Origin: a virus
Direction: 5' to 3' (one strand)
IMG/VR virus record: IMGVR_UViG_3300032291_002993
Coordinates: 1 to 43,272 of that record
Length of the DNA stretch: 43,272 bases
A program made the position numbers and the translations under genes. Shown here one piece after another: positions 1-43,272 of the stretch. The notes below the pieces were generated by a model, which searched no databases, was not told where the DNA came from, and saw only the letters and a program-made list of their open reading frames with translations. Position 1 is the stretch's first letter. Every line of letters starts with the position of its first letter.

Positions 1-646
1 AAGCTATAACTTCAACTGTTACAGTACTAGTATTAATATTATATGGAACAATAATATAATCAGTTCCATTCAAATCATCATTATTTAATTTTATACCACC
101 ACCAAACGAACCTGTATATGAAGATGAACCTTGTAAAGTCGCATTATATCCATTACCTGAAGCATCAGTCCAAGTTGCTCCTGATGAAGGTGCTGATTGT
201 AAATTAAATATTAATCCACTTGTTACTATACCACCACCTGAACCTGATGATGGTGAAGGTGTAGGAGAAGGAGGAGTACTTGGTGATATAGTTACACTAG
301 GAGTTAATGATGGTGTTCTAGTTATACTAGGAGTTACACTTGGAGTTAATGATGGTGTTCTAGTTATACTAGGAGTTACACTGGGTGTTGTTGAAGATGT
401 TCTAGTAGGAGTTATAGTAATACTAGGTGTAATACTTGGTGTTCTAGATATACTTGGGGTTATTGAAGGTGTTAAAGATGGAATACTACTAATACTTACA
501 CTTGGAAATGGTGATAAAGATATGCTTGGAGTTGGACTTGGAAATATTCTATAACCATTCTCAATAAAAATAACTGCTCCCTTTTTAGGAGCATCTATAT
601 CAATTCTTGATTTTTGAGGAGTTATACTTTTAAATTTATATTTCAA
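1..646 (-). CDS. Thr-Pro-Ser repeat fibre protein with LamG-like domain (partial)
   Basis: The reading frame is open from a TTG codon at 646-644 to the left edge, so the C-terminus is missing. About 34 N-terminal residues are followed by roughly 100 residues of degenerate TPS-I/V-TPS repeats (about 545-238), a Gly-rich hinge, and then the start of a concanavalin/LamG-like lectin domain with the signature [13 protein letters not shown]. No ATG occurs between the upstream in-frame TAG and the repeats, so TTG is the best start. It lies about 16 nt after an ATATTTATA element. The likely role is a tail fibre or surface adhesin with a mucin-like stalk and a carbohydrate-binding head. It is encoded directly downstream of the glycosyltransferase cluster. 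The domain call is from pattern recognition; the fibre role is inference. Confidence 0.7.
238..545 (-). repeat. TPS-I/V degenerate coding repeat
   Basis: Short degenerate repeats encode Thr-Pro-Ser-Ile/Val-Thr-Pro-Ser units, with Arg-Thr-Pro variants. The same amino-acid pattern dominates the 667-residue protein at the other end of the window, so the two fibre-like genes share a stalk type. Confidence 0.75.
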
Positions 647-661
647 AGTGGAATGTTTATA

Positions 662-670
662 TATAAATAT
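662..670 (-). promoter_or_regulatory. ATATTTATA element, candidate promoter of the LamG fibre gene
   Basis: The coding strand reads ATATTTATA just after the terminator at 674-700 and about 16 nt before the TTG start. The terminator-element-gene order matches 35392-35400, 36442-36450 and 38823-38831. Confidence 0.45.
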
Positions 671-673
671 GGT

Positions 674-700
674 AATTAAAAAGGCACCAAGTGGTGCCTA
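674..700 (-). terminator. Rho-independent terminator after the glycosyltransferase operon
   Basis: A perfect 7-bp stem AGGCACC/GGTGCCT with a 4-nt loop is followed on the minus strand by TTTT then AATT. It lies 20 nt after the stop of the HtrL-GT2 gene and separates the sugar operon from the fibre gene. Confidence 0.8.
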
Positions 701-720
701 ATTTTATTTATTTATAAATA

Positions 721-2409
721 TTAATTTTCTCTACGTTCATGAGCTTCATACCAAATAATTCTATCATGCTTAACAGGTGAAGCTAATAATATAGCTGGTT
801 TAAGATTTCCTTTAATTGTTTCTTGGTACATAAATGACATCCAAGTTTGTTCATATGGGTGTGCCCATTCTGTATCTAAAAACATTTTTTGGTTACCTAC
901 TTTTCCAACAATCATAGGCCAATTACAATAATAAATTTCTCCATCAGCATATGATAAACCATGGAGATTATCAATTTTATTAAATTTAGTTCTTGGACAA
1001 TTTATATCTAAACCATTTACTGGTAATTTATTATAATTAGGCCATTGTTGAGTTCTAATATCTTGAGGAACATTATACCAAGAACATTGGAAATGATTAT
1101 CCATATAAACTTCTGTAAAAGATAATTTTAAGAAATCATATTCTTCTTTTAACATGATTTTATGGACTTTATTAAATAAATCTTCTTCAAATAATTTAAA
1201 TCCATTTCTGCAGAATCCAAGATCAGGTGGATATAAACACATATCATCTTCTAAAAAAATATAATAATCACTATCTGATTCTTGAAAATGTTTAGCAGCT
1301 AATAATCTACCTCTATTAATACCTAAATTTTCATTAGTAATAATATGTTCAAAACCATATTCTTCACAAATTGCTTTATTACCTTCTATTGCTTCTTCCT
1401 TATTAGAATTATCAATTAATATTTTTCTTGTTTTATTTAACCAATCTGGATGTAATTTATATGATTCTAAAGTATGTCTTAATTGTTCTGGAAAGTTAAA
1501 AGTAAGAATATATAATGATGTTTTTAAATTTGATGTATTTAAATTTTTAGGTTTTAAATATACTCTATTATCAGGAATAGGTTCTAATTCAACATTATCA
1601 TCTAATAATGCTTGAATAAATTTAATCACTAATCCATTTTCATCTAAAGCGTATCTTCTATATTTTTCAGGTTCAACATAAGACATTAAAGTAAAAATAC
1701 TTTCTTCAGTACCCATATATCCTTCACTTAATGATCTTTCTAACATTGAATAATACAAAGCATTAGCTTCATTTATTGCTTCTTTTTTACCACCAAATAA
1801 TCCTCCTCGACAAACATATTCTACATTAGTGCCAGAGTAACGATTCATAGCATCAAATCTAAAACCATGAATTTCATCTGTTGCATTATATGGATAACTT
1901 AAAAATAAAAATGAATCTAAATAAGGTGAAATCTTATCTAATACATTATTTTCAGTGAAATATTTTTCATATACAGTATTTGTTATTCCAGCATCTAACC
2001 AAAGAAATTTTTCAGTATTAAATGGATTCCATATAGTCACATCATTAAGTAAAAACATTTTAGATTGCACAATTGGATTATACCACTCAAGTGAAGCTTG
2101 AGGTGAAGTTGTTAACCATCCGCCTTCTCCAGTTTGATTATACCAATCAGGGTTGGTTCTTATTTCTTGTGTTTTATCCCAAAAAGGTCCATACATGTTT
2201 TTTACATCTGATAATTCATATATCTTAACAAATGTATTTTCTTTGTTTCTTTTTTCCCATACTAATGCTTCTAATTCCTTAGGAACATAAAGAAACAAAT
2301 TAGCATCTATTTCTAAAAAATGATTTAAATGTTGAATATAATGAGTAAATGGTCTTCCATCACGACCTATATTCCATAATCCTGTAACAATTGTTAAATT
2401 ACTATCCAT
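721..2409 (-). CDS. HtrL/YibB-like and GT2 glycosyltransferase fusion
   Basis: 562 residues in two parts. Residues 1-280 resemble the HtrL/YibB (WlaTC) family, opening with TIVTGLWNIGRDGRP and carrying WLDAG near 137-141 and a GGLFGG segment near 202-207. Residues about 297-562 are a GT-A glycosyltransferase with an acidic DxD-type motif LEDDM at 386-390, expected to bind a metal and a nucleotide-sugar. The product probably transfers sugars in two steps or onto two acceptors. It is last in a run of eight sugar genes and starts 1 nt after the stop of its upstream neighbour. Donor and acceptor cannot be read from the sequence; virion protein glycans or modified DNA are both possible. Confidence 0.75.
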   Translation of the reverse strand: MDSNLTIVTGLWNIGRDGRPFTHYIQHLNHFLEIDANLFLYVPKELEALVWEKRNKENTFVKIYELSDVKNMYGPFWDKTQEIRTNPDWYNQTGEGGWLTTSPQASLEWYNPIVQSKMFLLNDVTIWNPFNTEKFLWLDAGITNTVYEKYFTENNVLDKISPYLDSFLFLSYPYNATDEIHGFRFDAMNRYSGTNVEYVCRGGLFGGKKEAINEANALYYSMLERSLSEGYMGTEESIFTLMSYVEPEKYRRYALDENGLVIKFIQALLDDNVELEPIPDNRVYLKPKNLNTSNLKTSLYILTFNFPEQLRHTLESYKLHPDWLNKTRKILIDNSNKEEAIEGNKAICEEYGFEHIITNENLGINRGRLLAAKHFQESDSDYYIFLEDDMCLYPPDLGFCRNGFKLFEEDLFNKVHKIMLKEEYDFLKLSFTEVYMDNHFQCSWYNVPQDIRTQQWPNYNKLPVNGLDINCPRTKFNKIDNLHGLSYADGEIYYCNWPMIVGKVGNQKMFLDTEWAHPYEQTWMSFMYQETIKGNLKPAILLASPVKHDRIIWYEAHERREN

Positions 2410-2410
2410 A

Positions 2411-3214
2411 TTATTTTAAATAACCTGCGTGAACAAATTCCATATAATTTTCATCAATTTGAGCTTGTCTATATAAATTACATCCTTCAGCTCCTTCATG
2501 TGAGGTATGTCTTAATACTGGAAATGTAGTAACACCTCCTTTTTCTTGCCATTGTTCTAGAGTAATTAGTTGTTCTTCATTTTCATAAAAAGTTACTAAT
2601 TTTTTAATTCCTTTTTTACCCATATATGCACTTATAAGAATATCATCATTCCATGATTTACCTATAAATTCAACAAAATCTGGTTCGAACCATTTGCGTC
2701 TATAAGATACTGTTTTATAATGTTGCAATATATTTACATAAATGTCTTTATAAACTGATACTACAAAATGATTTCTTACATCATTAAATACACTTGAATC
2801 TTCAGCTCTAGTACCATCATATCCTACAGCTGTATTTTCATATTTATTTTGGTTTTTAACTTGTTCAGCAACCATTCCTGGGTGGTATACTAAGTCATCA
2901 TCACAAACAATAATGATTGTTTCTGGATCTAATACTCGCTGGATTGTATAATATGATTTAGTAATAGGTCCTAAATCTTCTAATCCACTAAATATTTTAA
3001 ATTTTGGATTTGTTTTTTCAATTTCTCTTAACCATTCTGGTATAATATATTCTTCGCCTGTGTATTTTAATACAGTAGGAATATTAAAATGAATTTCATA
3101 CTCTCCTTCATAATCTTGATTTAATAATGAGTCAATATTACTTTTAATACCTTCATTATATTCTTGAGTTATCCTACTTGGTAATGTTGTTAATGTTACT
3201 ACTACTTTTTCCAT
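2411..3214 (-). CDS. GT-A fold glycosyltransferase (copy 1)
   Basis: 267 residues. The N-terminus VVVTLTTLPSRI and the triple-Asp motif VCDDDLVYHP (Asp 105-107) are typical of a nucleotide-sugar-binding GT-A fold. It is a paralogue of the gene immediately upstream (3217-4059): both share the LTT-P-R start, the LLNQ segment, the GPI-K segment, the DDD motif and a YRR motif in the C-terminal half. It starts 2 nt after the stop of that gene, so the pair probably arose by tandem duplication and may add successive sugars. No signal peptide or membrane segment is visible. Substrate unknown. Confidence 0.7.
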   Translation of the reverse strand: MEKVVVTLTTLPSRITQEYNEGIKSNIDSLLNQDYEGEYEIHFNIPTVLKYTGEEYIIPEWLREIEKTNPKFKIFSGLEDLGPITKSYYTIQRVLDPETIIIVCDDDLVYHPGMVAEQVKNQNKYENTAVGYDGTRAEDSSVFNDVRNHFVVSVYKDIYVNILQHYKTVSYRRKWFEPDFVEFIGKSWNDDILISAYMGKKGIKKLVTFYENEEQLITLEQWQEKGGVTTFPVLRHTSHEGAEGCNLYRQAQIDENYMEFVHAGYLK

Positions 3215-3216
3215 TT

Positions 3217-4059
3217 TTATTCTGTATAAATTATATCATGATTATGTATTAAATCCCATACATGTTGTTCTGTTCTACCCATATGTTCACCATTTTGTTG
3301 TCTAAATTCATAAAAACCAGAGTTAGGAAAAGATAATGGATTTATAATTGGAAAACTATGTGATCCTCTACCGTTATCATTTACTGGCCTCCAATCTATT
3401 TCTTTATCCCAAGTAAGACATCTTACATGAATTTGTTTCTTTTTTAAATAATATCCTACTAAAACATCATCATTAGTTGAATATAATAAAAATTCTTTAC
3501 TTAAAAAATCTTCTTCAAAGAAACTTCTTCTATATCCTACTGAATGCCAATGTCCTGGGATTATTAATTGTAAATCATTTTTAACTGGAAAATAAAGATG
3601 GGTGGATTTTAAACAGTATTTTTTAACTCCATCCTCAATCCATTCTCTTTTTTCTACAGGTACATCTCCTCTAAAAGATGTAGCAGAATTAGAGTATTTA
3701 TTTAACCCCACTAAATGAGTTTCTAACATATCTTCATGATATATATGATCATCATCACAAACAATTAAAATATCATTAGGATCAGTTACTACATTTAATA
3801 CTCCAGTAATTTTAACTATAGGTCCAAAATCTTCATCTACTCTATTAATAATTAATTTAGAATAATCATTAGCTAATTGTTGTAATTCTTCAGATATAAC
3901 ATATTCTTCATCATTATTGTTTTTATAATGATATGGGATGTTTAATACAACTTTATATTCATGAGTTGTTTTTTGATTTAATAAAGATTCTAAATTTTGT
4001 TTAGAATACTCCCACAACTGCATTCTTATAGGAACCGTTGTCAATGATATATAAATCAT
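3217..4059 (-). CDS. GT-A fold glycosyltransferase (copy 2)
   Basis: 280 residues. ISLTTVPIRM at the N-terminus, IVCDDDHIYH (Asp 102-104) and VGYRRSFFEEDF define the same family as the neighbouring 267-residue protein. The DDD triad is the likely metal/nucleotide-sugar site. It starts 1 nt after the stop of the FkbM-type gene. Divergence from its paralogue is large enough that the two probably differ in donor or acceptor. Function beyond glycosyl transfer is not inferable. Confidence 0.7.
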   Translation of the reverse strand: MIYISLTTVPIRMQLWEYSKQNLESLLNQKTTHEYKVVLNIPYHYKNNNDEEYVISEELQQLANDYSKLIINRVDEDFGPIVKITGVLNVVTDPNDILIVCDDDHIYHEDMLETHLVGLNKYSNSATSFRGDVPVEKREWIEDGVKKYCLKSTHLYFPVKNDLQLIIPGHWHSVGYRRSFFEEDFLSKEFLLYSTNDDVLVGYYLKKKQIHVRCLTWDKEIDWRPVNDNGRGSHSFPIINPLSFPNSGFYEFRQQNGEHMGRTEQHVWDLIHNHDIIYTE

Positions 4060-4060
4060 A

Positions 4061-4930
4061 TTAAAATTGTTTTAAAAAACTTAAATCACAATCATCAATA
4101 GATGGATTATTTGGAAAATCTACACCAGCTACTGGATAATTTTGATTATCAGGTGTATATTCTGTTATGTATTTACGATTTATAAATGATAATTCAGGTA
4201 CTCTTGGTACTTTATGTCCTTCATAATCAAATTCTCCACCCCAGTTATTACCATGAATATGAACTAGTATAAAATGTTTATCTAATTTTTCTAAAATTTG
4301 AACTAATTTAGCTTGGTTATCTGGTTGGTCAATCCAATGGAATTCAATTACAAGACCGTTAGTAAATGAAGCTAAATCATCAATATCTACATTTAAAAAA
4401 TAATCATATTCAGCTCCTTCAGTGTCAATTTTTAAAAATATATCTCCTTCAATACCAAAACGATTATAATGTTCTCTAACATCTTTAACACTCATAGTAT
4501 TAATTAGATTATTAGAAGATTCTAAAACTGTATTTAAAACATTTCTATATTTTCTTACATTTTCTACACTTTGGTTTTCGTTTAATTCATCAAAGGCTGT
4601 GTTTAGATTATCTTTTCTATTATATAATTCATTAAAATATAATTGTTCTTTTTCTATAGTAGATATACTTGAACCTAATCCTTCAGCAAAGAAATGTTGA
4701 ATACCATTATCCCAATTATCCTGGTTTACAGTGTGGTCAAATAAATAATTTGGTTTATTATATTTAGTAATAAAATCATCTTCGTATGTTTTATCACCAC
4801 CATATCCATAAGTGAATAAGGCTGTACAAGTTTCTAATACTATTTCAGGCATTACATACCCACCATCACTTTCGTTTCCTAAACGAACTTTAGGTGAATT
4901 TATTAATTGGGGTTTTAAATATTTAAGCAT
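4061..4930 (-). CDS. FkbM-type SAM-dependent methyltransferase
   Basis: 289 residues. The motif FLKIDTEGAEYD (near 165-176) is the hallmark K-I-D-x-E-G-A-E of FkbM (Methyltransf_21) proteins, which usually O-methylate sugars or related hydroxyls. The N-terminal region RLGNESDGGYVMP resembles the SAM-binding start of some family members. It overlaps the Gmd gene by 8 nt and sits between Gmd and two glycosyltransferases, so methylation of a glycan is the most economical reading. Methylation of another acceptor cannot be excluded. Confidence 0.75.
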   Translation of the reverse strand: MLKYLKPQLINSPKVRLGNESDGGYVMPEIVLETCTALFTYGYGGDKTYEDDFITKYNKPNYLFDHTVNQDNWDNGIQHFFAEGLGSSISTIEKEQLYFNELYNRKDNLNTAFDELNENQSVENVRKYRNVLNTVLESSNNLINTMSVKDVREHYNRFGIEGDIFLKIDTEGAEYDYFLNVDIDDLASFTNGLVIEFHWIDQPDNQAKLVQILEKLDKHFILVHIHGNNWGGEFDYEGHKVPRVPELSFINRKYITEYTPDNQNYPVAGVDFPNNPSIDDCDLSFLKQF

Positions 4931-5903
4931 TATTTTTATTTTTTAGTTTTTTAATATCTTCATCAACCATTGTTTTAACCATTGTTTTAAAATTTGTTTT
5001 TGGTATCCAATTTAATTTAACTGCTGCTTTAATAGCATTTCCGCATAATACATCTACTTCAGCTGGTCTTAAAAATTGAGGATTAATTTTAATATAATCT
5101 TCCCAATTATCTATACTAATATGTTTAAAGGCTATTTTTATAAATTCTTTTACAGAATGAGAAATACCAGTAGCTATCACATAATCATCAGGTTCATCTT
5201 GTTGTAACATTAGCCACATAGCCTCTACATAATCAGGAGCATAACCCCAATCACGTTTAGCATCTAAATTACCTAAACTAATATGATCTGCTAATCCTAA
5301 ATAGATTTGGGCTACACCATTAGTAATTTTACGAGTTACAAATTCTAAACCTCGTCTTTCAGACTCATGATTAAATAATATTCCACTACAAGCAAACATA
5401 CCGTATGATTCTCTATAATTTTTAGTTATCCAATGGCCATATAATTTAGCAACACCATATGGTGATCTTGGATAAAATGGAGTATTTTCATTAGATGGAT
5501 TTTCTACCATACGACCAAACATTTCTGAACTAGATGCTTGATAGAATCTAATTTTTTCATGTCCGTATTCTCTTATTGCTTCAAGTATTCTTAATACTCC
5601 TAAACCAGTTACATCACTTGTTTGTTCAGGTGTATTCCAGCTTTCTCCTACAAAGGATTGAGCGGCTAAATTATATACTTCATCAGGATTACTTTCTTTT
5701 AAAGCACGCATTAATGAATTTTGATCAGTTAAATCACCTTTAATAAAATGTATTTTATCCTCTATATGTTTAATATTTGTTCTATTTTCTCCAGAACTGC
5801 GTCTTTCTAAACCATAGACTTTATACCCTTTATTTAATAAGAAATCAGCTAGATGGCTACCATCCATTCCATTTATACCTGTTATTAATGCTGTTTTATT
5901 CAT
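4923..5903 (-). CDS. gmd: GDP-mannose 4,6-dehydratase
   Basis: 326 residues, extended short-chain dehydrogenase. The NAD(P)-binding glycine motif GINGMDG (9-15), the SSSE segment (124-127) and YGVAK (Tyr149, Lys153) provide cofactor and catalytic residues. FNHESERRG and RDWGYAPDYVEAMW are characteristic Gmd signatures. It converts GDP-mannose to GDP-4-keto-6-deoxymannose, the precursor of GDP-fucose, GDP-rhamnose or GDP-perosamine. No second-step reductase or aminotransferase is visible in this window, so the end product is open and may rely on the host. It overlaps both neighbours by 8 nt, so it is part of the sugar operon. Confidence 0.92.
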   Translation of the reverse strand: MNKTALITGINGMDGSHLADFLLNKGYKVYGLERRSSGENRTNIKHIEDKIHFIKGDLTDQNSLMRALKESNPDEVYNLAAQSFVGESWNTPEQTSDVTGLGVLRILEAIREYGHEKIRFYQASSSEMFGRMVENPSNENTPFYPRSPYGVAKLYGHWITKNYRESYGMFACSGILFNHESERRGLEFVTRKITNGVAQIYLGLADHISLGNLDAKRDWGYAPDYVEAMWLMLQQDEPDDYVIATGISHSVKEFIKIAFKHISIDNWEDYIKINPQFLRPAEVDVLCGNAIKAAVKLNWIPKTNFKTMVKTMVDEDIKKLKNKNNA

Positions 5904-6888
5904 TTCTTAATTTAGTATAACAATGAGTATCAGTTATTTCAATCACATCTAAAAAATCATTATAGTATTTTTCTAACTGATTTTTATTGTTTTTTATAAA
6001 AGATGATATATTTGTAGTGTCTGAGTAATTAAAATTATGATGTAACCAACCACTTCTTTCTCCAAAATAAAAAGTATCTTCAGGTCTAGTAACATGTCTG
6101 TATGTATTTAATTTATTCTGGTATTGGAATTTATTATGGTCCACAAATGTATATTCTATACTTTCAAAGAATTGCATTAAATAAGGACTTAACCAATTTA
6201 AATCTAAAATAACATTTCCGCTAATCCAGTTTGAATCGGTTGTATAAATTTTTTCAAGAGATGTGTTCCATAAGTTAAAATACAACATTATATCTTCTTT
6301 GTTTTTAAAATGAAATCCTCTAACAAAACCATCAGCTACTCTAAGAGAATCACGATTAAAATTAATTTGAGGAAAATATGGTGCTGCATTTTGTTGGATA
6401 AATGGTTCTCTTAATGATCTAGCATCTAAACCATCTTCTCCAAACCATGGCATAAATGTTGTTCCAGGAGGGATTAATTCAAAAAATGATTTTATCATTT
6501 CTGGACTATTTCTGAACATCATATCTGAATCAATAATAGTAAAATTCAATATATTTTGTTCGGCCATATAAGGCATTATAAAACGATGTATATCATATGG
6601 GTATAATTTTTTATCATCACCGTTATAAAAATCTAATAAACCTGCCCATAATTCTTCTTCAGTAGGTACATTTAAAAATTGCTCATATTGTAAACTAATA
6701 GGATAATTTTCTCTAATTTTATCCATTGTTACAAATGTAAAAATATCATGATAGTCTTTATACAACGGAAGAGAATACTCATCTGTAAAAATTATTATAT
6801 AATCTTTAATGATATCTGGACTAGATTTTTTTAATAAATCTAATCTATAAATCATAGCTGGACCTGTTACTGTTATTATAAATTTCAT
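5896..6888 (-). CDS. Putative glycosyltransferase with DSD motif
   Basis: 330 residues. The segment FTIIDSDMMFRN (Asp120-Ser-Asp122) is a DxD-type motif flanked by hydrophobic strands, as in GT-A enzymes, and the N-terminus (FIITVTGPAMIYRL) could be the first Rossmann-like strand. Tyr/Phe/Asn-rich, no signal peptide. It overlaps gmd by 8 nt and follows the GNT1-type gene after 4 nt, so it is co-transcribed with sugar enzymes. The family assignment is weaker than for the other transferases: I recognise the fold type from motif and context only. Confidence 0.5.
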   Translation of the reverse strand: MKFIITVTGPAMIYRLDLLKKSSPDIIKDYIIIFTDEYSLPLYKDYHDIFTFVTMDKIRENYPISLQYEQFLNVPTEEELWAGLLDFYNGDDKKLYPYDIHRFIMPYMAEQNILNFTIIDSDMMFRNSPEMIKSFFELIPPGTTFMPWFGEDGLDARSLREPFIQQNAAPYFPQINFNRDSLRVADGFVRGFHFKNKEDIMLYFNLWNTSLEKIYTTDSNWISGNVILDLNWLSPYLMQFFESIEYTFVDHNKFQYQNKLNTYRHVTRPEDTFYFGERSGWLHHNFNYSDTTNISSFIKNNKNQLEKYYNDFLDVIEITDTHCYTKLRNE

Positions 6889-6892
6889 ACTA

Positions 6893-8140
6893 TTATATAT
6901 TATGTTCTATTCTTTCAGCCCATCCTCTTTTTTCACTATGAGCCCATGCTACCATTTTTACTGGTTTTTTATCAAAGTATGGGAAATATTCTTCATAATG
7001 AATTGGAGTACCATTTTCTATAAATTGTTGTAATTGATGACCATCAATAAATTTACTATAAACTCCTATACCATTTTCATCATCAAATGCTATTAATATA
7101 GAATTATAATCATTTTCGGGTAATTCATTTCTATGTACTGTTACTAGATGATAAAATGATTTAGACCATGGGCTATCTATTAATGTAGGTGGATAACCAT
7201 TTTCTAAAGTATGTTTTTGTACTGATTTATCTTTAAAATTAACACCAGCATATGCTTCATAATCAGCTAATGTTCTAACAGTACCTAAATCATATCCTGT
7301 TAGATCAAATCCATTATCTTCTACTCTAAATAATTGTCTAATTTTGGCTCTAGCACTTTCTTGTTTATTCCACCAATCAACTCCTCTCTTAGCATCATCA
7401 TCCCATTTTAAAATACCATCACGTTCTTCTCTCATTGTTGAATGCCATACTACTAACTCATGAGGATGGAACATATCGTATCCTGATGTAAATGATCTAA
7501 CTGTTAGGTTAATTTCTTCACCACTAAAGTAAATATCTGGGTCATGTTTAATTTCTTTAGCCCATTCATTTCTAGCAAAACAAAAATGTCCTGATAAAAA
7601 TCTAGACATTGGTGGTTCAGTCATATCTTGCCACCCAGTTAATAATCCTGGTCTGATAAAGATAGTACCATGAGGATAAAAACATACAAAATGTTGTTGC
7701 CACGGTTCCATTGTTCTACCAGCTGGATCATTAAATGGAGTATACAATGGTAAATAAGCTGCTAATATAGGTTTATATCCTTGTTTTTCTCGTTGATTAT
7801 GCATTCTTATTAGCGTTTCATCCCAGTCTTTAGCAAAACGATGGTGTGAGTCTAATTGAAGGATATAATCTTCATCTGTTAATAATTCCTCATTAATAAT
7901 AGCTCTTGCCCAAGGTAATCCTTGTGCTTCAGTATATAATACATCCTTAATTTTAAATCGTGGATCGTTTCTATATTCATCTACATTATCAAAAGTATCA
8001 TCAGGATGATATTGTCTACAAATACCAAAGTGAACTCTTTCAGGATATTTAGCATTCTCTAATGCTGATTTAATTGTTGGTACTAACTCAGGATCTCTAT
8101 ATCCTGGTAAGTGAAGCATTATGGTTTCTTTTTTATTCAT
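6893..8140 (-). CDS. GNT1-family (PF11397-like) GlcNAc-transferase, copy 1
   Basis: 415 residues. The N-terminal GYRDPELVPTI, the metal-site LQLDSHHRF (Asp97-Ser-His99-His100) and the C-terminal GEEINLTVRSFTSGYDMFHP are signatures of the GlcNAc glycosyltransferase family. Characterised members include Dictyostelium Gnt1, which puts alpha-GlcNAc on a hydroxyproline, and related polypeptide alpha-GlcNAc-transferases that act on Thr. It overlaps its upstream paralogue (8133-9380) by 8 nt, indicating duplication in place. Given two Thr/Pro/Ser-rich repeat proteins in this genome, O-glycosylation of virion fibres is a reasonable hypothesis; other acceptors are possible. Confidence 0.8.
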   Translation of the reverse strand: MNKKETIMLHLPGYRDPELVPTIKSALENAKYPERVHFGICRQYHPDDTFDNVDEYRNDPRFKIKDVLYTEAQGLPWARAIINEELLTDEDYILQLDSHHRFAKDWDETLIRMHNQREKQGYKPILAAYLPLYTPFNDPAGRTMEPWQQHFVCFYPHGTIFIRPGLLTGWQDMTEPPMSRFLSGHFCFARNEWAKEIKHDPDIYFSGEEINLTVRSFTSGYDMFHPHELVVWHSTMREERDGILKWDDDAKRGVDWWNKQESARAKIRQLFRVEDNGFDLTGYDLGTVRTLADYEAYAGVNFKDKSVQKHTLENGYPPTLIDSPWSKSFYHLVTVHRNELPENDYNSILIAFDDENGIGVYSKFIDGHQLQQFIENGTPIHYEEYFPYFDKKPVKMVAWAHSEKRGWAERIEHNI

Positions 8141-9380
8141 AACTTATATTTTGTTCTATTCGTTCACACCATCCTTTTGAAGTACTGTATGGCCAAACTC
8201 TCCATGATGTGGGTTGTTTATTATCATTATATTCTCTCCAAATATGAATAAATTGATCATTAGGATCAGAATTTAATAATGATTTGATTTCTGATATATC
8301 AGCGTCTTGTCTATATAAATCTTGACTATTTTCATCTAAAATAGCTATTACAAAAGATGTATAATCAAGTTCTGTAATTGATCCTTTATAAACATCAATA
8401 CATACTTTAATTTTATTAAGTAAGTTATCATCAAAATTTTCTAAAGGTACAGGTAATGATTTATATTCAGCAGTATGTTTATGTACTTGTCTAGTATTAA
8501 ATTTTACTCCAATATATTTTTCATATTCTTCTAAAGTACGTTCTTTACCAAAACTATATTTTTCTAGATCCATCAATGTATCAGGTAATTCACCTCCCAT
8601 ACCATGTAATGCTCTATATCTAGAATATGATGTTGAATTCTTTTTAGACCATTCTTTATCATCATCCCATTGTTTTGTTTTACCATTTCTAATATATTCA
8701 TGCCATATAACAGGAACATGAGGATGAAATAAATCATAACCATGAGTAAATGATCTAGCGGCTAATGATGGTTCTTCACCATGAAAATAATAATATGGAT
8801 CATATTTTACTTCCTGAGCCCATTTACCTACTGTAAAAATAAAATGACCAGATAAAAATCTAGATGGAATAGGACCTTCTAAATCTTTCCAACCATCAAT
8901 AACATGGGGTTTAATAAAGATAGGACCTTCTGGTAAGTATCTATCAAATTCTAAGTTCCAACATTCATTTACTCTACTGTTAGGATCATTTTTAGGATCA
9001 AAACCAGGCAGATAAGCTGTTAATAATGGTTTTTTATGTCCTTTTTTCTTTAGTTCTTTTAACATTTTAACTAAAGTGACGTCCCAGTTTTTAGAAAATC
9101 GATGATGTGAATCTAATTGAAGATAATAATTTTCTCCATCATATAAATTTTGAATTAAATTTCTAGCCCAACAAGTTCCTTTAGAATGTTCATATGGAAC
9201 ATCAATAATTTTAAATCTAGAATCATCTTTATAATCATTTAAAGATTCAGTATCATCATGTTGCCAACATATTCCAAATCTTAATCTATCTGGATTTTTA
9301 GAGTTTGTTATACAATCTTGGATTGTAGGGATTAACTCAGGGTCGCGATAACTCGCTATTGATATAAAAATGGTTTCCAT
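8133..9380 (-). CDS. GNT1-family (PF11397-like) GlcNAc-transferase, copy 2
   Basis: 415 residues, the same length as its paralogue. SIASYRDPELIPTI, LQLDSHHRF (Asp90, His92, His93) and GEEPSLAARSFTHGYDLFHP align with the neighbouring copy, and the acidic and His residues of the putative metal site are conserved, so both copies look catalytically intact. It is first in the sugar operon; the 34-nt gap upstream shows no terminator. The C-terminal third differs most between the copies, which may reflect acceptor choice. Confidence 0.8.
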   Translation of the reverse strand: METIFISIASYRDPELIPTIQDCITNSKNPDRLRFGICWQHDDTESLNDYKDDSRFKIIDVPYEHSKGTCWARNLIQNLYDGENYYLQLDSHHRFSKNWDVTLVKMLKELKKKGHKKPLLTAYLPGFDPKNDPNSRVNECWNLEFDRYLPEGPIFIKPHVIDGWKDLEGPIPSRFLSGHFIFTVGKWAQEVKYDPYYYFHGEEPSLAARSFTHGYDLFHPHVPVIWHEYIRNGKTKQWDDDKEWSKKNSTSYSRYRALHGMGGELPDTLMDLEKYSFGKERTLEEYEKYIGVKFNTRQVHKHTAEYKSLPVPLENFDDNLLNKIKVCIDVYKGSITELDYTSFVIAILDENSQDLYRQDADISEIKSLLNSDPNDQFIHIWREYNDNKQPTSWRVWPYSTSKGWCERIEQNISYE

Positions 9381-10868: not shown

Positions 10869-11507
10869 TTATTTTAAAACAGCACCATTTACTTCGATTG
10901 CGTGTAAAAACTCTTCACGAATCATATTATTTTTCTCCATAAACACTCCACTAAATTTATTAGTAGTCATTACTGATGGGTGTTTAATACCTCTATGTGA
11001 ACAACAAGTATGTTTACAAGCAATACTAACTGCTACAGATCCACAATTCATTTTACCAGCAACATAATCATGAATTTGTTGTGTTAACGATTCTTGCATT
11101 TGTGGTCTACGAGCAAACCATTCAACAATACGATTTAATTTAGATAAACCTATAACATTTTTCGCGGGTACATAAGCTACAGTAGCATAACCTGTAAATG
11201 CTAAGTTGTGATGTGCACACATACTAACAATTGGAATACCTGATTGAATAACTAATCCATCATAGCCTTCATCATTCGGAAATACAGTAATGTTTGGTTC
11301 AGGTGTAATTGAACCTACAATTAAATCTTTTAACCATGCTTTAGCTACACGACGAGGTGTGTCTTGTGTTTGTTTATCTGCGTTAAAATCAAAACCAACT
11401 GCTGTTAAGAAATTAGCATATGCTGATGCTGCTTCTGTAATCATTGATTCGATTTCTTCTTCAGTACGTGGTAAGTTACCGTTTGATTTTTTTAATAATT
11501 CTTTCAT
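10869..11507 (-). CDS. folE: GTP cyclohydrolase I
   Basis: 212 residues. Zinc/catalytic elements MCAHHNLAFTGYATVAYVP (Cys97, His100) and CKHTCCSHRGI (164-174) are present, with QDTPRRVAKAW at 48-58. It converts GTP to 7,8-dihydroneopterin triphosphate, the first step of both folate and 7-deazaguanine synthesis. With QueD, QueE and QueC nearby, the deazaguanine route is the obvious use. The residue after the zinc Cys is Ala instead of the usual Glu (CAHH versus CEHH). It starts 1 nt after the upstream gene's stop. Confidence 0.93.
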   Translation of the reverse strand: MKELLKKSNGNLPRTEEEIESMITEAASAYANFLTAVGFDFNADKQTQDTPRRVAKAWLKDLIVGSITPEPNITVFPNDEGYDGLVIQSGIPIVSMCAHHNLAFTGYATVAYVPAKNVIGLSKLNRIVEWFARRPQMQESLTQQIHDYVAGKMNCGSVAVSIACKHTCCSHRGIKHPSVMTTNKFSGVFMEKNNMIREEFLHAIEVNGAVLK

Positions 11508-11508
11508 A

Positions 11509-11721
11509 TTATTTATCTTTATTTTCTTTTAATTTACTAATACTATCTTGGAGCTCCAAAAGTTTCATAGCAACCATAGTATTCCATGTTGCTAATTGAT
11601 CCCATATTTTATCAATTTCTCTTTTAGATTTATTTAATTGAATTAACTGGTATATTTGTAATCCAGTTAATACTAAAATAATAATAAAATAAAATTGTTC
11701 CTTTGATACAGTTATAACCAT
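11509..11721 (-). CDS. Small membrane protein with coiled coil
   Basis: 70 residues, not recognised. A single membrane helix near residues 10-26 (FYFIIILVLTGLQIYQL) is followed by a Lys/Glu-rich helix likely to be coiled coil. It lies 1-2 nt from folE and queE, so it is co-expressed with the deazaguanine genes, but nothing in the sequence ties it to that pathway. Confidence 0.6.
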   Translation of the reverse strand: MVITVSKEQFYFIIILVLTGLQIYQLIQLNKSKREIDKIWDQLATWNTMVAMKLLELQDSISKLKENKDK

Positions 11722-11723
11722 GA

Positions 11724-12569
11724 TTAAACATTTAATGTTTTATCCCAAGCTGAAATATGTAAACGAGTCATTCCTATAAATTTATATTTTTTAGCCATTT
11801 CTAAACAGAATTGAGTACGTTCATGGAAATCAGATTGATCATCTAAACCAGGCATACAAACTACATTTTTCAATGGTATATTAAACGGTTCTACAAAGTC
11901 GCGGAACAATTCGAGTACATCATCTTCAGTTGAAATAACGAATTTAAATTGGTAGTTATCATGTTCCATTATGCGTTTAATGGCATCAGGTTTGATACGT
12001 TGTTTCTCAGTCATTCCTGAATTGGCTAATTTAGGAGAGCAGTTGATTTGAGTTAAATTATTAAATAATTCATCTTCAATTACTACTGTACCATTAGTTT
12101 CAATTTCATGATATACATTATTAATTACAGATAAAAAATATGGTTCTTTATCAGCCCAATATTTAATAAAATTATTAATCGCTACTTGATGTCCTTTAAT
12201 TGTTGGCTCTCCACCTGTCCAAATTAAGTGGATTACTCCATTTAAAATATCTTGATAAATACCTTGTTCTTTCCATTGATCGATTAGGTATTGGAAGTCT
12301 TTATCTTCACCTCGCCATAGCCATTGAGATGTACTATCGCAAGTCCAAGTTGCTTTACCTTCAGCTTGTAAATCACCTACAAAAATCTCTCCATCCTCTA
12401 GTGATTTATCTTTTAATAATTGATTTCCAAATGCTCTTGAAAAACCGCAAGTTAGGTTACATAAACCTAAACGAATAAAGTATGATGGTACTCCTGTAGT
12501 TTTGCCTTCACCCTGTACAGAGTAGAAATCACTACTAATCATTAATTTATCTGGACTAATTTTGCTCAT
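11724..12569 (-). CDS. queE: 7-carboxy-7-deazaguanine synthase (radical SAM)
   Basis: 281 residues. FYSVQGEGKTTGVPSYFIRL (15-34) and IWTGGEPT (116-123) are QueE signatures, the latter binding SAM. It converts 6-carboxy-tetrahydropterin to 7-carboxy-7-deazaguanine with a 4Fe-4S cluster. The cluster Cys are C37, C41 and C77, that is C-X3-C-X35-C; in the standard C-X3-C-X2-C form the last two are adjacent, so about 33 residues are inserted inside the cluster loop. Function is probably kept because all three Cys and GGEP remain. Between folE/70-residue gene and small genes leading to queC. Confidence 0.88.
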   Translation of the reverse strand: MSKISPDKLMISSDFYSVQGEGKTTGVPSYFIRLGLCNLTCGFSRAFGNQLLKDKSLEDGEIFVGDLQAEGKATWTCDSTSQWLWRGEDKDFQYLIDQWKEQGIYQDILNGVIHLIWTGGEPTIKGHQVAINNFIKYWADKEPYFLSVINNVYHEIETNGTVVIEDELFNNLTQINCSPKLANSGMTEKQRIKPDAIKRIMEHDNYQFKFVISTEDDVLELFRDFVEPFNIPLKNVVCMPGLDDQSDFHERTQFCLEMAKKYKFIGMTRLHISAWDKTLNV

Positions 12570-12570
12570 A

Positions 12571-12729
12571 TTATTTATTGTTTTTAAATGTTTTCCATTC
12601 AGATTTTGGAATATATTTAAAATATCCAGAATCTACTTTCTTGTCAGCTTCTTTATCTACTAATCTTTGGATAGTACCTACAGGTACATTTGATGTGCCT
12701 TTAACAGCTTTGATACATTTCATTGGCAT
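12571..12729 (-). CDS. Small hypothetical protein with a strong Shine-Dalgarno
   Basis: 52 residues from ATG at 12729 to TAA at 12571-12573. Basic; includes VPVGTIQRLVDKEADKK and KYIPKSEWK. The start is preceded by GGAGG nine nt upstream (12739-12743 on the minus strand), one of the few clear Shine-Dalgarno sequences in this window. It ends 1 nt before queE. Function not recognised. Confidence 0.65.
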   Translation of the reverse strand: MPMKCIKAVKGTSNVPVGTIQRLVDKEADKKVDSGYFKYIPKSEWKTFKNNK

Positions 12730-12732
12730 AAT

Positions 12733-12864
12733 TTATTTCCTCCATGTTTTTATATATATTAATATATGATTAATATTTTGGGACTCCAAAATGAGTCCCA
12801 AAAATGTTGTGTGTGAATTTGAATCACTACATAAACCTAATGTATGTTCAATAATATGAATCAT
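12733..12864 (-). CDS. Very small ORF filling the queC gap
   Basis: 43 residues from ATG at 12864 to TAA at 12733-12735. It begins 1 nt after the queC stop and ends 3 nt before the next ATG, a fit typical of real genes in this compact genome. The N-terminus IEHTLGLCSDSNSH resembles short His/Cys-containing proteins I recall from Bacteroidota phages, but this memory is weak. Its end contains the Shine-Dalgarno of the next gene, suggesting translational coupling. It also spans an 11-bp inverted repeat (12776-12803), so it could instead be a leader with RNA structure. Confidence 0.4.
   Translation of the reverse strand: MIHIIEHTLGLCSDSNSHTTFLGLILESQNINHILIYIKTWRK
12776..12803 (-). other. Perfect 11-bp inverted repeat
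   Basis: TTTTGGGACTC and GAGTCCCAAAA flank a 6-nt loop. The coding-strand transcript would form a stable hairpin 60 nt before the Shine-Dalgarno of the 52-residue gene. It lacks a U-tract after the stem on either strand, so it is not a standard terminator; RNA processing or protein binding are alternatives. Confidence 0.6.
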
Positions 12865-12865
12865 A

Positions 12866-13690: not shown

Positions 13691-13745
13691 AAATTTTATT
13701 TTATTTAAAGTATGCCAGGTATTTTAAGCGTATAGGCAAACGCTA

Positions 13746-13940
13746 TTAGTTCTTAAAATATAATTCTAAAAATGATTTTGGATACAACATAACTGGTCCT
13801 GAATATCTAGGATTTGATACTTCTCTAGTTAGTATTTTAATTTTTAATTCAGAGGCTTTATCAGCTACTTGTTTTCCTAATTCACCACCTGCTGCTTTTC
13901 CTAGAAAATCATACAGTGACATATAATCATTTTGTTCCAT
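13746..13940 (-). CDS. Hypothetical 64-residue protein
   Basis: 64 residues, not recognised. DYMSLYDFLGKAAGGELGKQ forms an acidic-to-helical N-terminus; the C-terminus PRYSGPVMLYPKSFLELYF is hydrophobic and aromatic. It sits 3 nt after the TGT-like gene and 55 nt before queC. Position inside the modification cluster is its only functional hint. Confidence 0.55.
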   Translation of the reverse strand: MEQNDYMSLYDFLGKAAGGELGKQVADKASELKIKILTREVSNPRYSGPVMLYPKSFLELYFKN

Positions 13941-13943
13941 AAC

Positions 13944-14726: not shown

Positions 14727-14955
14727 AGTGATATAACTTTTTCTTTAATTCATCAATTCGGATTTGCATATACCATTTTCCTAACCAGTTAGTTTTCTTT
14801 TGTTTTTCTTTCCACTCTTCAATTTCTTTATAGATAGGAGCATTGGCTTTATTTAACCAATCAATATCATCGTAACTATTATTTTCTAAATTTGCTACTG
14901 CTGGGTCTTCAGGTTTATTTTTTTCCGCTAATCTTTTATAAAAATTATCCTTCAT
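14716..14955 (-). CDS. Hypothetical charged 79-residue protein
   Basis: 79 residues, highly charged, rich in Lys/Glu/Trp, predicted helical (EIEEWKEKQKKTNWLGKW). It overlaps the TGT-like gene by 11 nt and queD by 11 nt, so it is translated with them. No recognisable domain; an accessory factor of the modification enzymes is possible only by position. Confidence 0.55.
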   Translation of the reverse strand: MKDNFYKRLAEKNKPEDPAVANLENNSYDDIDWLNKANAPIYKEIEEWKEKQKKTNWLGKWYMQIRIDELKKKLYHYEN

Positions 14956-40039: not shown

Positions 40040-42043
40040 TTATACTCCACCAAAAGATATTTCAAAATAATAATCATTTCCTGCAGCTGTGTATAAATCT
40101 AAATATGTTGAATAATTATCAAATGCAGATGTTATATATGCATTATTTATAAATAATGTAACCTGAGTACCAAATCCATAATAATCAACACCAGTTGCAT
40201 TAAGATATTGACCTGCAGCTGGAACTAAATCTATAATAGCAGAAGTGAATGTACTATAATGAGTATGACTGGATGCGTTATAATACACATCTGCGTAACC
40301 ATCACCATAAGCATACACTGTGTAACCTAAGGTTGATCCTAGAGCTAATGATGTTGAAGGTGTTACACTAGGAGTTCTAGTTGGAGTTATAGATGGTGTT
40401 CTAGATACACTTATTGAAGGTGTAGATGTTATACTTGGAGTAACACTTGGTGTTCTACTAATAGAAATACTAGGAGTAACACTAGGTGTAGCTGTTATAC
40501 TTGGTGTAACACTTGGTGTTCTACTAATAGAAATACTAGGAGTAACACTAGGTGTAGCTGTTATACTTGGTGTAACACTTGGTGTTCTAGATATACTAAT
40601 ACTTGGTGTCACCGAAGGTGTAGTAGTAACACTTGGAGTTACAGATGGTGTTATAGATATACTAATACTAGGAGTAACACTAGGTGTTGTTGTTATTGAA
40701 GGAGTAACAGAAGGCGTTCTAGATATACTAATACTTGGTGTTACTGAAGGTGTAGTAGTAACACTTGGTGTTCTAGTAATACTTGGTGTAACAGAAACTG
40801 TTATACTAGGAGTTACACTAGGTGTAATTGAAGGTGTAACACTTGTTGAAACAGTAATACTTGGTGTTATAGAAGGTGTTACACTAGGTGTCACACTATT
40901 TGAAACTGTTATACTTGGAGTAATACTAGGAGTAACACTTGGTGTTCTAGTAATACTTACTGTTATACTTGGTGTTATAGATGGAGTAATACTAGGTGTT
41001 ACAGAAGGTGATACTGTAATTGATGGTGTAACTGATGGAGTAATAGAAGGTGTTACACTTGGTGTTCTAGTAATACTTGGTGTTATAGAAGGTGTCACAC
41101 TAGGTGTTACACTTGTTGAAACAGTAATACTTGGAGTAACAGAAGGTGTTAATGATGGAGTAGATGTTATACTAGGTGTTGGTGATGGTGAAGGAGGTAT
41201 AATAATAGCACTTCCACCTAATACAGTACAATCAATATATGATAATGAAGGTGTTATTGAAGGTGTTATAGAAGGTGTTATACTTGGTGTTACTGTAATA
41301 CTAGGTGTAATACTAGGTGTAATTGAAGGTGTTACACTTGGAGTAATTGAAGGTGTTCTAGTGATACTTGGTGTAATACTTGGTGTTATAGAAGGTGTTA
41401 TACTTGGTGTTACACTTGTTGAAACAGTAATACTTGGTGTTATAGAAGGTGTTATACTTGGAGTTACACTTGGTGATACAGTGATACTTGGTGTAATACT
41501 TGGAGTGACACTTGGTGATACAGTTATACTAGGTGTAATTGAAGGTGTTATACTAGGTGTTACTGATGGTGAAACAGTAATACTTGGTGTTATAGAAGGT
41601 GTTACAGAAGGTGTTCTAGTAACACTCACTGTTATACTAGGAGTAATTGAAGGTGTCACAGATGGAGTAACACTTGTTGAAACTGTTATACTTGGAGTAA
41701 TACTTGGAGTTATACTAGGTGTAATACTTGGAGTAATTGAAGGTGTTCTAGTAATACTTGGTGTTACTGAAGGAGTAATAGAAACTGTTATACTTGGTGT
41801 AACTGAAGGTGTTCTAGTAATACTTGGTGTTACTGAAGGTGATGGGCTAGTATTGTGATTATATCCATACCAACTACTTATAGTAAAAGGAGCACTACTA
41901 TTTGGTTTTAATAAAGAATTTTGATTAATAGGAACATATAGTCCTAATGATGATGATGCTAATGTTAAAGGAGCTTGAGCTGGGATTCCTAGCTCAATCC
42001 TAATATCATTTAAACTTAAACTTCCTGATAATGGTAAAGTCAT
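40040..42043 (-). CDS. Mucin-like Thr-Pro-Ser repeat fibre protein
   Basis: 667 residues. The N-terminal 65 residues ([18 protein letters not shown] and FTISSWYGY) resemble a short module common in phage structural proteins. Residues about 68-564 are degenerate TPS-I/V repeats with R-TPS and V-S-x-S variants, almost free of Lys, Asp, Glu and aromatics, broken once by a unique segment with a single Cys ([14 protein letters not shown]). The last 103 residues are a Tyr-rich beta domain. It overlaps the S74 fibre gene by 1 nt. An extended, heavily glycosylatable stalk is likely; the virion location is inference. Confidence 0.7.
40352..41839 (-). repeat. Long degenerate coding repeat (TPS-I/V units)
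   Basis: About 1.5 kb of short degenerate repeats with a 9-nt/3-codon period (ACT/ACA-CCT/CCA-AGT with ATT/GTA spacers). Synonymous codons vary between units, so the repeat is kept at protein level and recombination is damped. Antisense frames are also open as a by-product. Confidence 0.85.
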
Positions 42044-43272
42044 TATTGGTTTATTTTAGATTCTAAAACTTCAATTCTTTTAAGTAATTCTTTATTACTT
42101 TCTATTAATAATGCTACTAATTTTTCATATTTTACAGCTTTATATCCATTATCTCTTGTTGTTACTACTTCAGGTAATACTTTTTCTATTTCTTGAGCAA
42201 TAACTCCAACATCATGTCCTTCATATCCATGTATTTCTATTTCATTATTCCAATCAAATTCATATCCTCCTATTTGAGATACTTTTTCTAAAGCATTTTT
42301 AATTGGTTTAATATTATTTTTTAAACGACTATCTGATGTAGAAAATGCTACAATATCATTTGAAGCATCTATTCTACCAACTGTTGCACTAGGAGTGATA
42401 TTACCTACTGCTAATGAACCACTATATACTCTAGCTCCAGTTAATGTATTAGCATTAATATCTAAAGCATATAATGGTGTAATAGTTCCTAACCCAAGTC
42501 TACTACCTGATCCATATAATACCGGTCCATTACTTCCTAATTTTACAGCTCCTACTGTAACATCCTGCACACCGTATATACCCATAGTATTCACTATGTT
42601 GACATCATAAAGTGCGGCATCATCTCCTCCTTGGAAATACATAGCTCCATTTGGCTGAGCATAAATTGCACCTGTTGTAGTTAAAGAACCAGTTATAACT
42701 GCATTTCCTACGTATGGGAAAACTGATCCTCCTGTTGTAGCTACTGTTATGACTTTTCCGCTAGAATCTACTGCTAAATTAGCAGCAGCAGTTCCTGCAT
42801 AAGATGATACACTTGTATAACCAGGTAGCTCCATTTGTAAGGTATGGAGATTCCACTGTGCTACTAATCCGGTACTTGAAGCATTTGTTCCACGTAATAT
42901 ACGAGCGAAATTTGACCAGTTATCAATAAAAGATGCAGATGCGAAAGTACCTCCTGGAGCATTAAATCCAATTTGACCTCCTTCATTCGCTGTATCTCTA
43001 GCTCCTAATGTTATAGTATTTTCACTAGCTCCTAATGATGAAGTTCCTACTGTTAATGAACCTGTTATAAGTTGATTTCCTGTAATAGTAACTGAACCAG
43101 ATACACTTACTGAACCTGTAAAAGTGTGAATATCCGTAACTAAGTTACCATGTTTAGTTCCTGTATTTGTAACTTGAAATTCTATCGCGCTACCTGTAAA
43201 TACTGTAAATGAAGAACTAACAATTTGAGCTCCAGTAAATGTATTTGAACCTGTTTGAGCGAACACTGTACT
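42043..43272 (-). CDS. Tail fibre with C-terminal S74-type intramolecular chaperone (partial)
   Basis: At least 409 residues; the frame is open to the right edge, so the N-terminus is missing and GTG at 43266 is not a convincing start. The N-terminal part has Ser/Thr/Gly-rich beta repeats ([15 protein letters not shown] and [11 protein letters not shown]) typical of trimeric fibres. The C-terminus has [40 protein letters not shown] and a leucine-rich final helix, the peptidase S74 chaperone that cuts itself off after folding. It would bind host surface receptors. Confidence 0.88.

Follow-up and report, generated by a model that had tools for sequence, protein, structure and literature searches.

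A putative phage protein O-glycosylation locus with a constant GT60 and HtrL/YibB-GT2 core, an exchangeable interior, and Thr-Pro-Ser repeat fibres as candidate acceptors

Introduction

Why would a contractile-tailed phage carry a run of sugar genes next to a gene for a protein built of Thr-Pro-Ser (TPS) repeats, and what would the products of those genes modify? We address this question for the virus record IMGVR_UViG_3300032291_002993 of IMG/VR, whose 43,272 bases are referred to here as the window, and which encodes the sheath, tail tube, tape measure and baseplate hub proteins of a contractile-tailed phage together with a UvsX-like recombinase and a DnaB-like helicase. Positions 721-9380 are filled by eight contiguous minus-strand open reading frames (ORFs), transcribed from 9380 to 721 in the order of two GT60 transferases (GT60a and GT60b), an unnamed protein, gmd, an FkbM methyltransferase, two GT2-like proteins and a two-domain HtrL/YibB-GT2 enzyme, followed by a TPS repeat fibre. 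An earlier description made from the nucleotides alone (the original prediction) had reported eight sugar genes beside such a fibre, and the arrangement is as described, with one of the eight (5896-6888) lacking a family match. We conclude, with a probability of roughly 0.7, that the locus is a phage-encoded protein O-glycosylation system in which GT60 acts on TPS-rich virion fibres.

Results

The GT60 enzymes

Both 415-residue proteins encoded at the start of the locus match PF11397 strongly (E 2.4e-72 and 244.8 bits for 8133-9380, E 3.2e-47 and 162.2 bits for 6893-8140, cut-off 21), as had been proposed, and both also match phrog_24687, a phage 'glycosyltransferase' family. Asp-Ser-His is invariant in all 25 aligned GT60 proteins, those of the phages XacN1 and RAS14 among them, and we take it to be the metal motif (the Asp-x-His of the GT-A fold). 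YRDP is likewise invariant in 25 of 25, so that this part of the YRDPEL signature cited in the original prediction marks the family as a whole, not a subgroup.

The AlphaFold model of the 8133-9380 product, built from 23 aligned sequences, has a predicted local distance difference score (pLDDT) of 86.8 and a predicted template modelling score (pTM) of 0.85. A Foldseek search of PDB with this model returns polypeptide N-acetylgalactosaminyltransferases (pp-GalNAc-transferases) at every one of ranks 1-48 (best E 8.0e-11), and a VIA comparison places the same enzymes in rows 1-29 (Z 18.0-21.0 over 260-284 residues, root-mean-square deviation 3.2-4.1, sequence identity 11-15%), with the following row at 16.3; a phmmer search of GT60 against PDB sequences found no match. 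The model thus predicts a mucin-initiator-like enzyme of GT-A fold. Among characterized members of the family, the Trypanosoma cruzi GT60 enzymes add alpha-linked N-acetylglucosamine (alpha-GlcNAc) to Thr of Thr-rich mucins (PMC3769586; PMC8724618) and a Dictyostelium enzyme initiates mucin-type glycans (PMC8724618), according to excerpts of these papers. Two GT60 domains within a single open frame were also seen, in a contig from a bacterial metagenome-assembled genome (L504:259-2745) and in a phage contig (G039:38136-40457), in parallel with the tandem pair of the window.

A conserved HtrL/YibB-GT2 partner

The conserved core of the locus is formed by GT60 and by HtrL/YibB-GT2, a partner overlooked in the original prediction. 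The 721-2409 product matches HtrL_YibB (PF09612) with 54.7 bits against a cut-off of 24.1, and reaches 51.2 of the 264.9 bits needed for the NCBIfam YibB equivalog, short of that cut-off. Gene neighbourhoods were compared in the best 80 of 265 GT60 relatives from a scan of viral contigs, taking up to 10 kb on each side, and in 80 control loci each for UvsX, sheath and Gmd (240 in total); the counts include related contigs and fragments, and none is corrected for relatedness, host or habitat. HtrL/YibB-GT2 lies near GT60 in 77/80 loci and in 23/23 clusters, compared with 0/240 controls, and in 73 loci it is downstream on the same strand. Two of the three GT60 loci without it are on contigs that end 2-3 kb past GT60 (L015 and L051), and the third (L043) has none within 10 kb downstream. 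When either GT60 or HtrL-GT2 is compared with 50,697 phage records, hits with a coverage of 80% or more come from the same three phages only, XacN1, CM1 and RAS14, which are related to one another, and there are no further GT60 matches in those records.

The two enzymes also occur as one GT60-HtrL-GT2 polypeptide in the bacterial contigs L462, L484 and L526 (and in L461, where it is cut by the contig end), and in the reversed order, HtrL-GT60, in the bacterial contig L482. At E ≤1e-60, HtrL-GT2 is found in 1/390, 1/396 and 2/289 genomes of three groups; three of these four are the genomes from which the search started, and the fourth has the L526 fusion protein again and so adds no independent case. 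Taken together, the fusions and the rarity strongly suggest that GT60 and HtrL-GT2 work in one pathway. Structure comparison is less informative for this partner, whose model has a pTM of only 0.59: the top Foldseek hits are LH3, LARGE1, K4CP and COLGALT1 at poor overall template modelling scores of 0.2-0.3, VIA relates the C-domain to B4GALNT1 (Z 16.1) and the N-domain to 4ayj (Z 13.2), and phmmer against PDB sequences gives a single chance-level row (E 0.13). We read no activity from these.

F1 mycobacteriophages are reported to have glycosylated virions. In a table of the paper on one of them, WIVsmall, an HtrL_YibB protein is listed near a glycosyltransferase (ORF8 and ORF4; PMC10453261, in excerpt). 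HtrL may thus mark virion glycosylation more widely.

Thr-Pro-Ser repeats and their association with GT60

The second repeat fibre of the window, originally placed at 40352-41839, corresponds to ORF 40040-42043, whose repeat region of 498 amino acids is 25% Thr, 26% Ser and 19% Pro with 86 TPS triplets. Its codons are mixed (Ser as AGT 70, TCA 32 and TCT 25; Pro as CCT 49 and CCA 48), which argues that the repeats are kept at the protein level, by selection on the protein and not by simple DNA slippage. Pfam has no family for the repeat stretches. A dense Thr/Ser/Pro repeat protein encoded with the putative initiating enzyme, as expected of a mucin-type system, is present here, though not in every GT60 locus.

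The genomic association between repeats and GT60 that the original prediction had anticipated is also seen. Hence two of the outcomes named there as refuting it, a missing GNT1-family match and a missing link between the two gene types, did not occur. The motif TPxxTPxxTP occurs in 65/80 GT60 loci, compared with 13/80 for UvsX, 4/80 for sheath and 0/80 for Gmd; the totals of sequence differ (1476 kb for GT60, 823 kb for UvsX, 862 kb for sheath and 1379 kb for Gmd), and among stretches of at least 15 kb the counts are 57/65 for GT60, 5/15 for UvsX, 3/17 for sheath and 0/55 for Gmd. A strict detector of TPS ORFs, which superseded a first, looser one (60/80 GT60 loci), finds them in 53/80 GT60, 12/80 UvsX, 2/80 sheath and 0/80 Gmd loci. 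In 27/80 loci the gene immediately upstream of GT60, in the same orientation, encodes TPS repeats; random placement gives a mean of 5.9, and none of 5000 draws was as high. ORFs upstream of GT60 carry a Cys-type N-domain in 11/80 loci (two clusters), which was found in no control ORF. The idea that TPS repeats mark sugar cassettes in general was rejected, as no Gmd locus (0/80) has a TPS ORF or TPxxTPxxTP.

With whole contigs, the 50 longest GT60 contigs include 45 with the codon pattern for TPxxTPxxTP, against 8 among 50 controls picked by hand (Fisher p 3e-14, relatedness not removed), and the same pattern read backwards occurs in 3/50 and 0/50, respectively. These controls are longer contigs (7 sheath, 8 UvsX and 35 Gmd), and four of the eight that are positive carry GT60 themselves; at 65 kb or more the pattern is present in 28/28 GT60 contigs against 1/22 controls with no known GT60 (24 of the 50 controls having been scored for GT60). 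The hand-picked set omits four UvsX contigs that are GT60 contigs (L092, L122, L145 and L149). It further omits three contigs that combine TPS repeats with a lack of GT60, namely L158 (38.7 kb) and, shorter than this, G069 and G076, so that 8/50 understates the control rate and the unselected comparison is that of 65/80 with 13, 4 and 0 of 80. Among 50 contigs drawn from the three control sets and scored with a TPS[IV]TPS codon pattern (no matches when read backwards), 8 have both pattern and GT60, 4 GT60 only, 7 the pattern only and 31 neither (p 0.003).

Separately, we note that in two contigs (L051:1-9939 and L070:1-9939) GT60 is immediately preceded by a Thr-Pro repeat ORF exceeding 3,300 residues in length.

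Cultured phages

In the Xanthomonas phage XacN1, ORF334 is a GT60 protein and ORF330 an HtrL-GT2 protein, and TPxxTPxxTP repeats are carried, in two further stretches of the genome, by ORF232, ORFs 234-237 and ORF384. Excerpts of the XacN1 paper report at least two glycoproteins by proteomic analysis, with ORF334 among their possible makers; the virion proteomics are deposited in ProteomeXchange as PXD008065 (PMC5852040). The Stenotrophomonas phage RAS14 has 14 ORFs with TPxxTPxxTP, eight of them also found by the strict detector (examples are given in Table 1). Within 25 kb around GT60 the strict detector finds no repeat ORF in either phage; one long ORF about 9 kb from GT60 in each has a single TPxxTPxxTP stretch. 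We had considered these jumbo phages as a counterexample, and dropped this because both hold many repeat ORFs elsewhere in the genome. A weak N-terminal homologue of an XacN1/RAS14 repeat protein (92 residues, 35% identity) is encoded by Atu_ph07, in which there is no GT60 match, and this homologue is without repeats.

Bacterial counterparts

A bacterial comparison set of 80 GT60 loci includes HtrL in 16/80 and a TPS ORF in 10/80. In Jiulongibacter (L452), one Saprospiraceae genome (L447) and one Bacteroidia genome (L448), GT60 and HtrL sit beside a divergent TPS-repeat protein with a twin-Arg start; in a Vicinamibacterales contig (L461) such a protein is directly upstream of the fused GT60-HtrL, and in L486 it is beside GT60 without HtrL. 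The TPS ORFs of L474, L478 and L484 are short, weak matches. Proteins exported by the twin-arginine translocation (Tat) pathway could, like virion proteins, be glycosylated in the cytoplasm first, Tat use having been read by eye.

Of the 80 bacterial loci, 25 place GT60 inside type VI secretion clusters, in the order TssF-TssG-TssA and then GT60 (L460, L463, L466, L479, L480, L485, L487-L489, L492-L498, L501, L502, L511, L513, L515, L519, L521, L523 and L525), and two of these 25 gave a Thr-Pro repeat ORF. VgrG-type spikes with a Thr-Pro repeat tail are located about 4 kb from GT60 in L479:15081-17576 and L494:15079-17439 (the latter by detector only). In six loci (L511, L515, L519, L521, L523 and L525) a fimbrial-like secreted protein is encoded just upstream of GT60, and Pfam confirms Fimbrial, TssF and ImpA_N in L525.

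Are the repeats the acceptors?

The locus probably glycosylates virion proteins, and the best single reading is that the TPS repeats are the main acceptors. A number of observations weigh against the latter, beginning with the kind of evidence itself, which is genomic association, and with the relatedness left in all of the counts. The 80 GT60 loci reduce to 23 clusters at 80% identity, with a TPS ORF in only 15/23 and direct upstream adjacency in 6/23. TPxxTPxxTP is missing from 15/80 GT60 stretches; of the 50 longest GT60 contigs, five, each shorter than 65 kb, lack TP repeats; and G072, G087, G090 and G091 have GT60 without the TPS[IV]TPS pattern, G087 being a 69.8 kb control contig. Among the close T4-like relatives of the window identified by way of UvsX, 13/80 stretches contain repeats and no GT60; as these are its nearest relatives, it is not unusual for this lineage to have repeats with no GT60 nearby. 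When 50 TPS contigs are taken as a starting point (the first of at least 20 kb among 80 listed of 120, the strict detector finding no TPS ORF in 8/120), 17 carry GT60 and 33 show none, so that repeats without GT60 are common. Most repeat genes of RAS14 are spread over the genome far from GT60; the excerpts of the XacN1 paper leave the glycosylated proteins unnamed and do not tie them to TPS repeats, the GT60 family or HtrL (PMC5852040); and the 25 type VI secretion loci are a different setting for GT60. Lastly, the Skp1 GT60 enzymes act on hydroxyproline, as stated in excerpts of PMC6939170.

Several of these points would be expected if the sugars were attached to virion proteins elsewhere, in globular parts of the fibre or the capsid or on hydroxyproline as in Skp1, and if the Thr-Pro repeats served only as flexible linkers often present in these phages: repeats commonly occur without GT60, and some GT60 loci have no nearby repeat ORF, the upstream ORF encoding a different protein. 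We regard this explanation as unlikely, given the presence of TPxxTPxxTP in 65/80 GT60 but only 17/240 control stretches, and the lack of repeats in the homologue from Atu_ph07, a phage without a GT60 match. Glycosylation of the TPS repeats remains our preferred interpretation.

An exchangeable interior

The sugar genes between GT60 and HtrL-GT2 are exchanged as cassettes. In 68 loci this interior comprises 194 genes in 49 families and 37 different orders, with 30 families confined to one cluster. Even where GT60 is 90-95% identical, 107 of 115 locus pairs have no common interior family, nor do 32 of 88 pairs at 95% identity or above, the pairs not being independent and the families, from automatic clustering, possibly being split. 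At the nucleotide level, L065 and L077 match through GT60 (90%), continue with unrelated segments of 3.8 kb and 1.6 kb, and match again from inside the HtrL gene; the same swap is seen between L017 and L018 and between L046 and L037, the borders being the end of GT60 and the start or end of HtrL, and the last of the four pairs compared, L062 and L055, is collinear over the whole interior. The return of homology in L065/L077 is about 0.6 kb into the HtrL gene; in this pair it therefore seems that the N-terminal HtrL domain is exchanged together with the interior and the GT2 domain is retained.

The gmd and fkbM genes of the window are members of one such interior. The original prediction suggested that they could supply and cap deoxysugars, and both are matched, FkbM weakly; they belong to the exchangeable part of the locus and not to its conserved core. 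The 5896-6888 product has no family in Pfam, PHROGs or NCBIfam, and its relatives lie inside the same locus in L013 and L014; by position only, it is a probable transferase.

Pfam analysis of ten interior proteins identified a carbamoyltransferase, GT34, GT25, GT2, a rhamnosyl O-methyltransferase and a PLOD-type transferase, and left four without a family. Carbamoyltransferases of the NodU type are found repeatedly next to GT60 in jumbo and T4-like phages (L085:13412-15709, L016:7259-8905 and L005:14744-16390; assigned by Pfam in L005, by its own annotation in XacN1 and by clustering in L016), and this recurrence suggests a carbamoylated sugar.

Several of these genes (GT2, GT25, the carbamoyltransferase and the rhamnosyl O-methyltransferase) resemble surface-polysaccharide genes, and HtrL is mentioned in excerpts of papers on Acinetobacter outer-core loci, as might be expected of a cassette that changes the surface glycans or lipids of the infected cell, for instance against superinfection. 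Such a role is nonetheless improbable in our estimation: an adhesin-like or repeat ORF often immediately precedes GT60, the bacterial fused and neighbouring forms sit with twin-Arg TPS proteins, and the predicted GT60 fold is that of polypeptide transferases.

Gene map of the window

Features of the window are listed in Table 1. The repeat protein of L008 at the position equivalent to 2-646 has a Laminin_G_3 domain above cut-off, and at the other end of the window a Peptidase_S74 protein adjoins the second repeat protein, so that this neighbourhood looks like a fibre module. A 7-deazaguanine gene set occupies 10869-15409.

Table 1. Coordinates of genes in the window, with examples of RAS14 repeat ORFs
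Feature	Position	Strand	Remarks
TPS repeat fibre, candidate acceptor	2..646	-	Cut by window end
Two-domain glycosyltransferase, HtrL/YibB + GT2-like; conserved GT60 partner	721..2409	-	HtrL_YibB above cut-off, GT2 stretch just below
GT2-like glycosyltransferase, variable interior	2411..3214	-	24.1 vs cut-off 23.3
GT2-like glycosyltransferase, variable interior	3217..4059	-	19.3, below Pfam cut-off
FkbM-type methyltransferase, weak match, variable interior	4061..4930	-	PF05050 23.5 vs 22.7; below NCBIfam cut-off
GDP-mannose 4,6-dehydratase Gmd, variable interior	4923..5903	-	TIGR01472 above cut-off
Protein without family match, variable interior	5896..6888	-	DSDMMF (DxD-like, read by eye)
GT60 (PF11397) transferase, second copy of tandem pair	6893..8140	-	162.2 bits
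GT60 (PF11397) transferase, model pp-GalNAc-transferase-like	8133..9380	-	244.8 bits; invariant D90 S91 H92
FolE	10869-11507
QueE-like by eye, otherwise unnamed	11724-12569
QueC	12866-13690
Weak DUF6610	13944-14726		phrog_19058 of unknown function
PTPS/QueD-like protein	14945-15409
Second TPS repeat protein, candidate acceptor	40040..42043	-	Repeat region 498 aa
Protein with Peptidase_S74 chaperone domain	42043..43266	-	Adjoins second repeat protein
RAS14 repeat ORFs (examples)	L534 25369-32429; L535 10305-14852, 25876-28587; L532 17332-19005

The FolE, QueC and QueD-like genes raise the question of whether the target of the enzymes is modified DNA of the phage itself, the more so as some phage transferases hypermodify DNA, and the original prediction had named this as an alternative. 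It fares poorly, and we consider it very improbable. In the 50 longest of the 80 GT60 contigs, QueC is present in 6/50 and thymidylate-synthase-family proteins in 7/50, so that these two families, the only ones scored, do not track GT60; the QueC family (named by eye) occurs in 7/80 GT60 stretches compared with 17/80 UvsX stretches without GT60; and the predicted GT60 fold is that of peptide transferases.

Discussion

Family membership, predicted fold, co-occurrence, adjacency, gene fusion and cassette exchange were computed here, and from them we infer donor sugar, linkage, acceptor residues, the order of steps and a purpose in shielding, stability or adsorption. In the system that we propose, GT60, present in two copies, would add the first sugar, most likely an alpha-linked N-acetylhexosamine such as GlcNAc, to Thr and possibly Ser of TPS-rich fibre stretches, in the host cytoplasm and before assembly. 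The two-domain HtrL/YibB-GT2 enzyme would extend this core sugar, and the interior genes (gmd, the FkbM methyltransferase, two GT2s and the unnamed protein) would supply the variable outer portion, which in the window may be an O-methylated deoxyhexose. Because related phages keep GT60 and HtrL-GT2 and swap the interior, each lineage would show its own glycan type. The glycosylated mucin-like stalk envisaged in the original prediction gains from the PF11397 match and the repeat association; the word 'stalk' is a guess, since the repeats occur in several kinds of protein and are spread across the RAS14 genome.

The proposed system has parallels with, and differences from, several that are known. 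The polypeptide alpha-GlcNAc-transferases Gnt2 of Dictyostelium and TcOGNT-2 of T. cruzi belong to the same Pfam family as the window GT60, whereas the putative transferases described here are phage or bacterial, apparently cytoplasmic, in tandem in the window clade and tied to HtrL/YibB-GT2. The Skp1 pathway, in which the GT60 enzyme Gnt1 is followed by the two-domain PgtA (PMC6939170, in excerpt), is alike in architecture only, as its acceptor is hydroxyproline on Skp1 and the PgtA domains are GT74 and GT2. Animal GT27 pp-GalNAc-transferases share the fold of the GT60 model (Z 18-21) and have acceptors dense in Thr, Ser and Pro, but are of another CAZy family and other organisms, with 11-15% sequence identity. 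Bacterial O-antigen and capsule loci have constant flanks around exchangeable sugar genes, as does the phage locus, although the phage product would be a protein-linked glycan. Mycobacteriophages likewise have phage-encoded transferases and glycosylated virion proteins, and differ in that the C-termini of capsid and tail tube proteins are reported to be glycosylated (Freeman et al. 2023, as excerpted via PMC12619734).

Virion protein O-glycosylation is thus already known, and in the open-licence PMC papers searched we found neither a mucin-type GT60 system with an exchangeable interior nor a paper tying GT60 or PF11397 to phages or Thr-Pro repeat fibres. What is new here is the HtrL-GT2 partner, the evidence from bacterial fusions and twin-Arg proteins, and the exchange of cassettes. 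Whether the constant GT60 and HtrL/YibB-GT2 core and the hypervariable, recombining interior, in phages and some bacteria, constitute an O-antigen-like serotype system for fibres, with the same GT60 branch also decorating Tat-exported mucin-like proteins and contractile injection systems, is a broader proposition to which we give even odds.

The cultured phages XacN1, CM1 and RAS14 carry the system, so that it can be tested now. If our interpretation is correct, mucin-type O-glycosylation would not be only eukaryotic, a homologous first step taking place on Thr-Pro-rich proteins in phages and bacteria, and many of the glycosyltransferase cassettes of environmental T4-like and jumbo phages would be explained. 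The enzymes would be soluble and cytoplasmic, and of use for making mucin-like glycoproteins, and the locus would be a glycan-typing locus with a bearing on receptor binding, antibody recognition and competition between phages.

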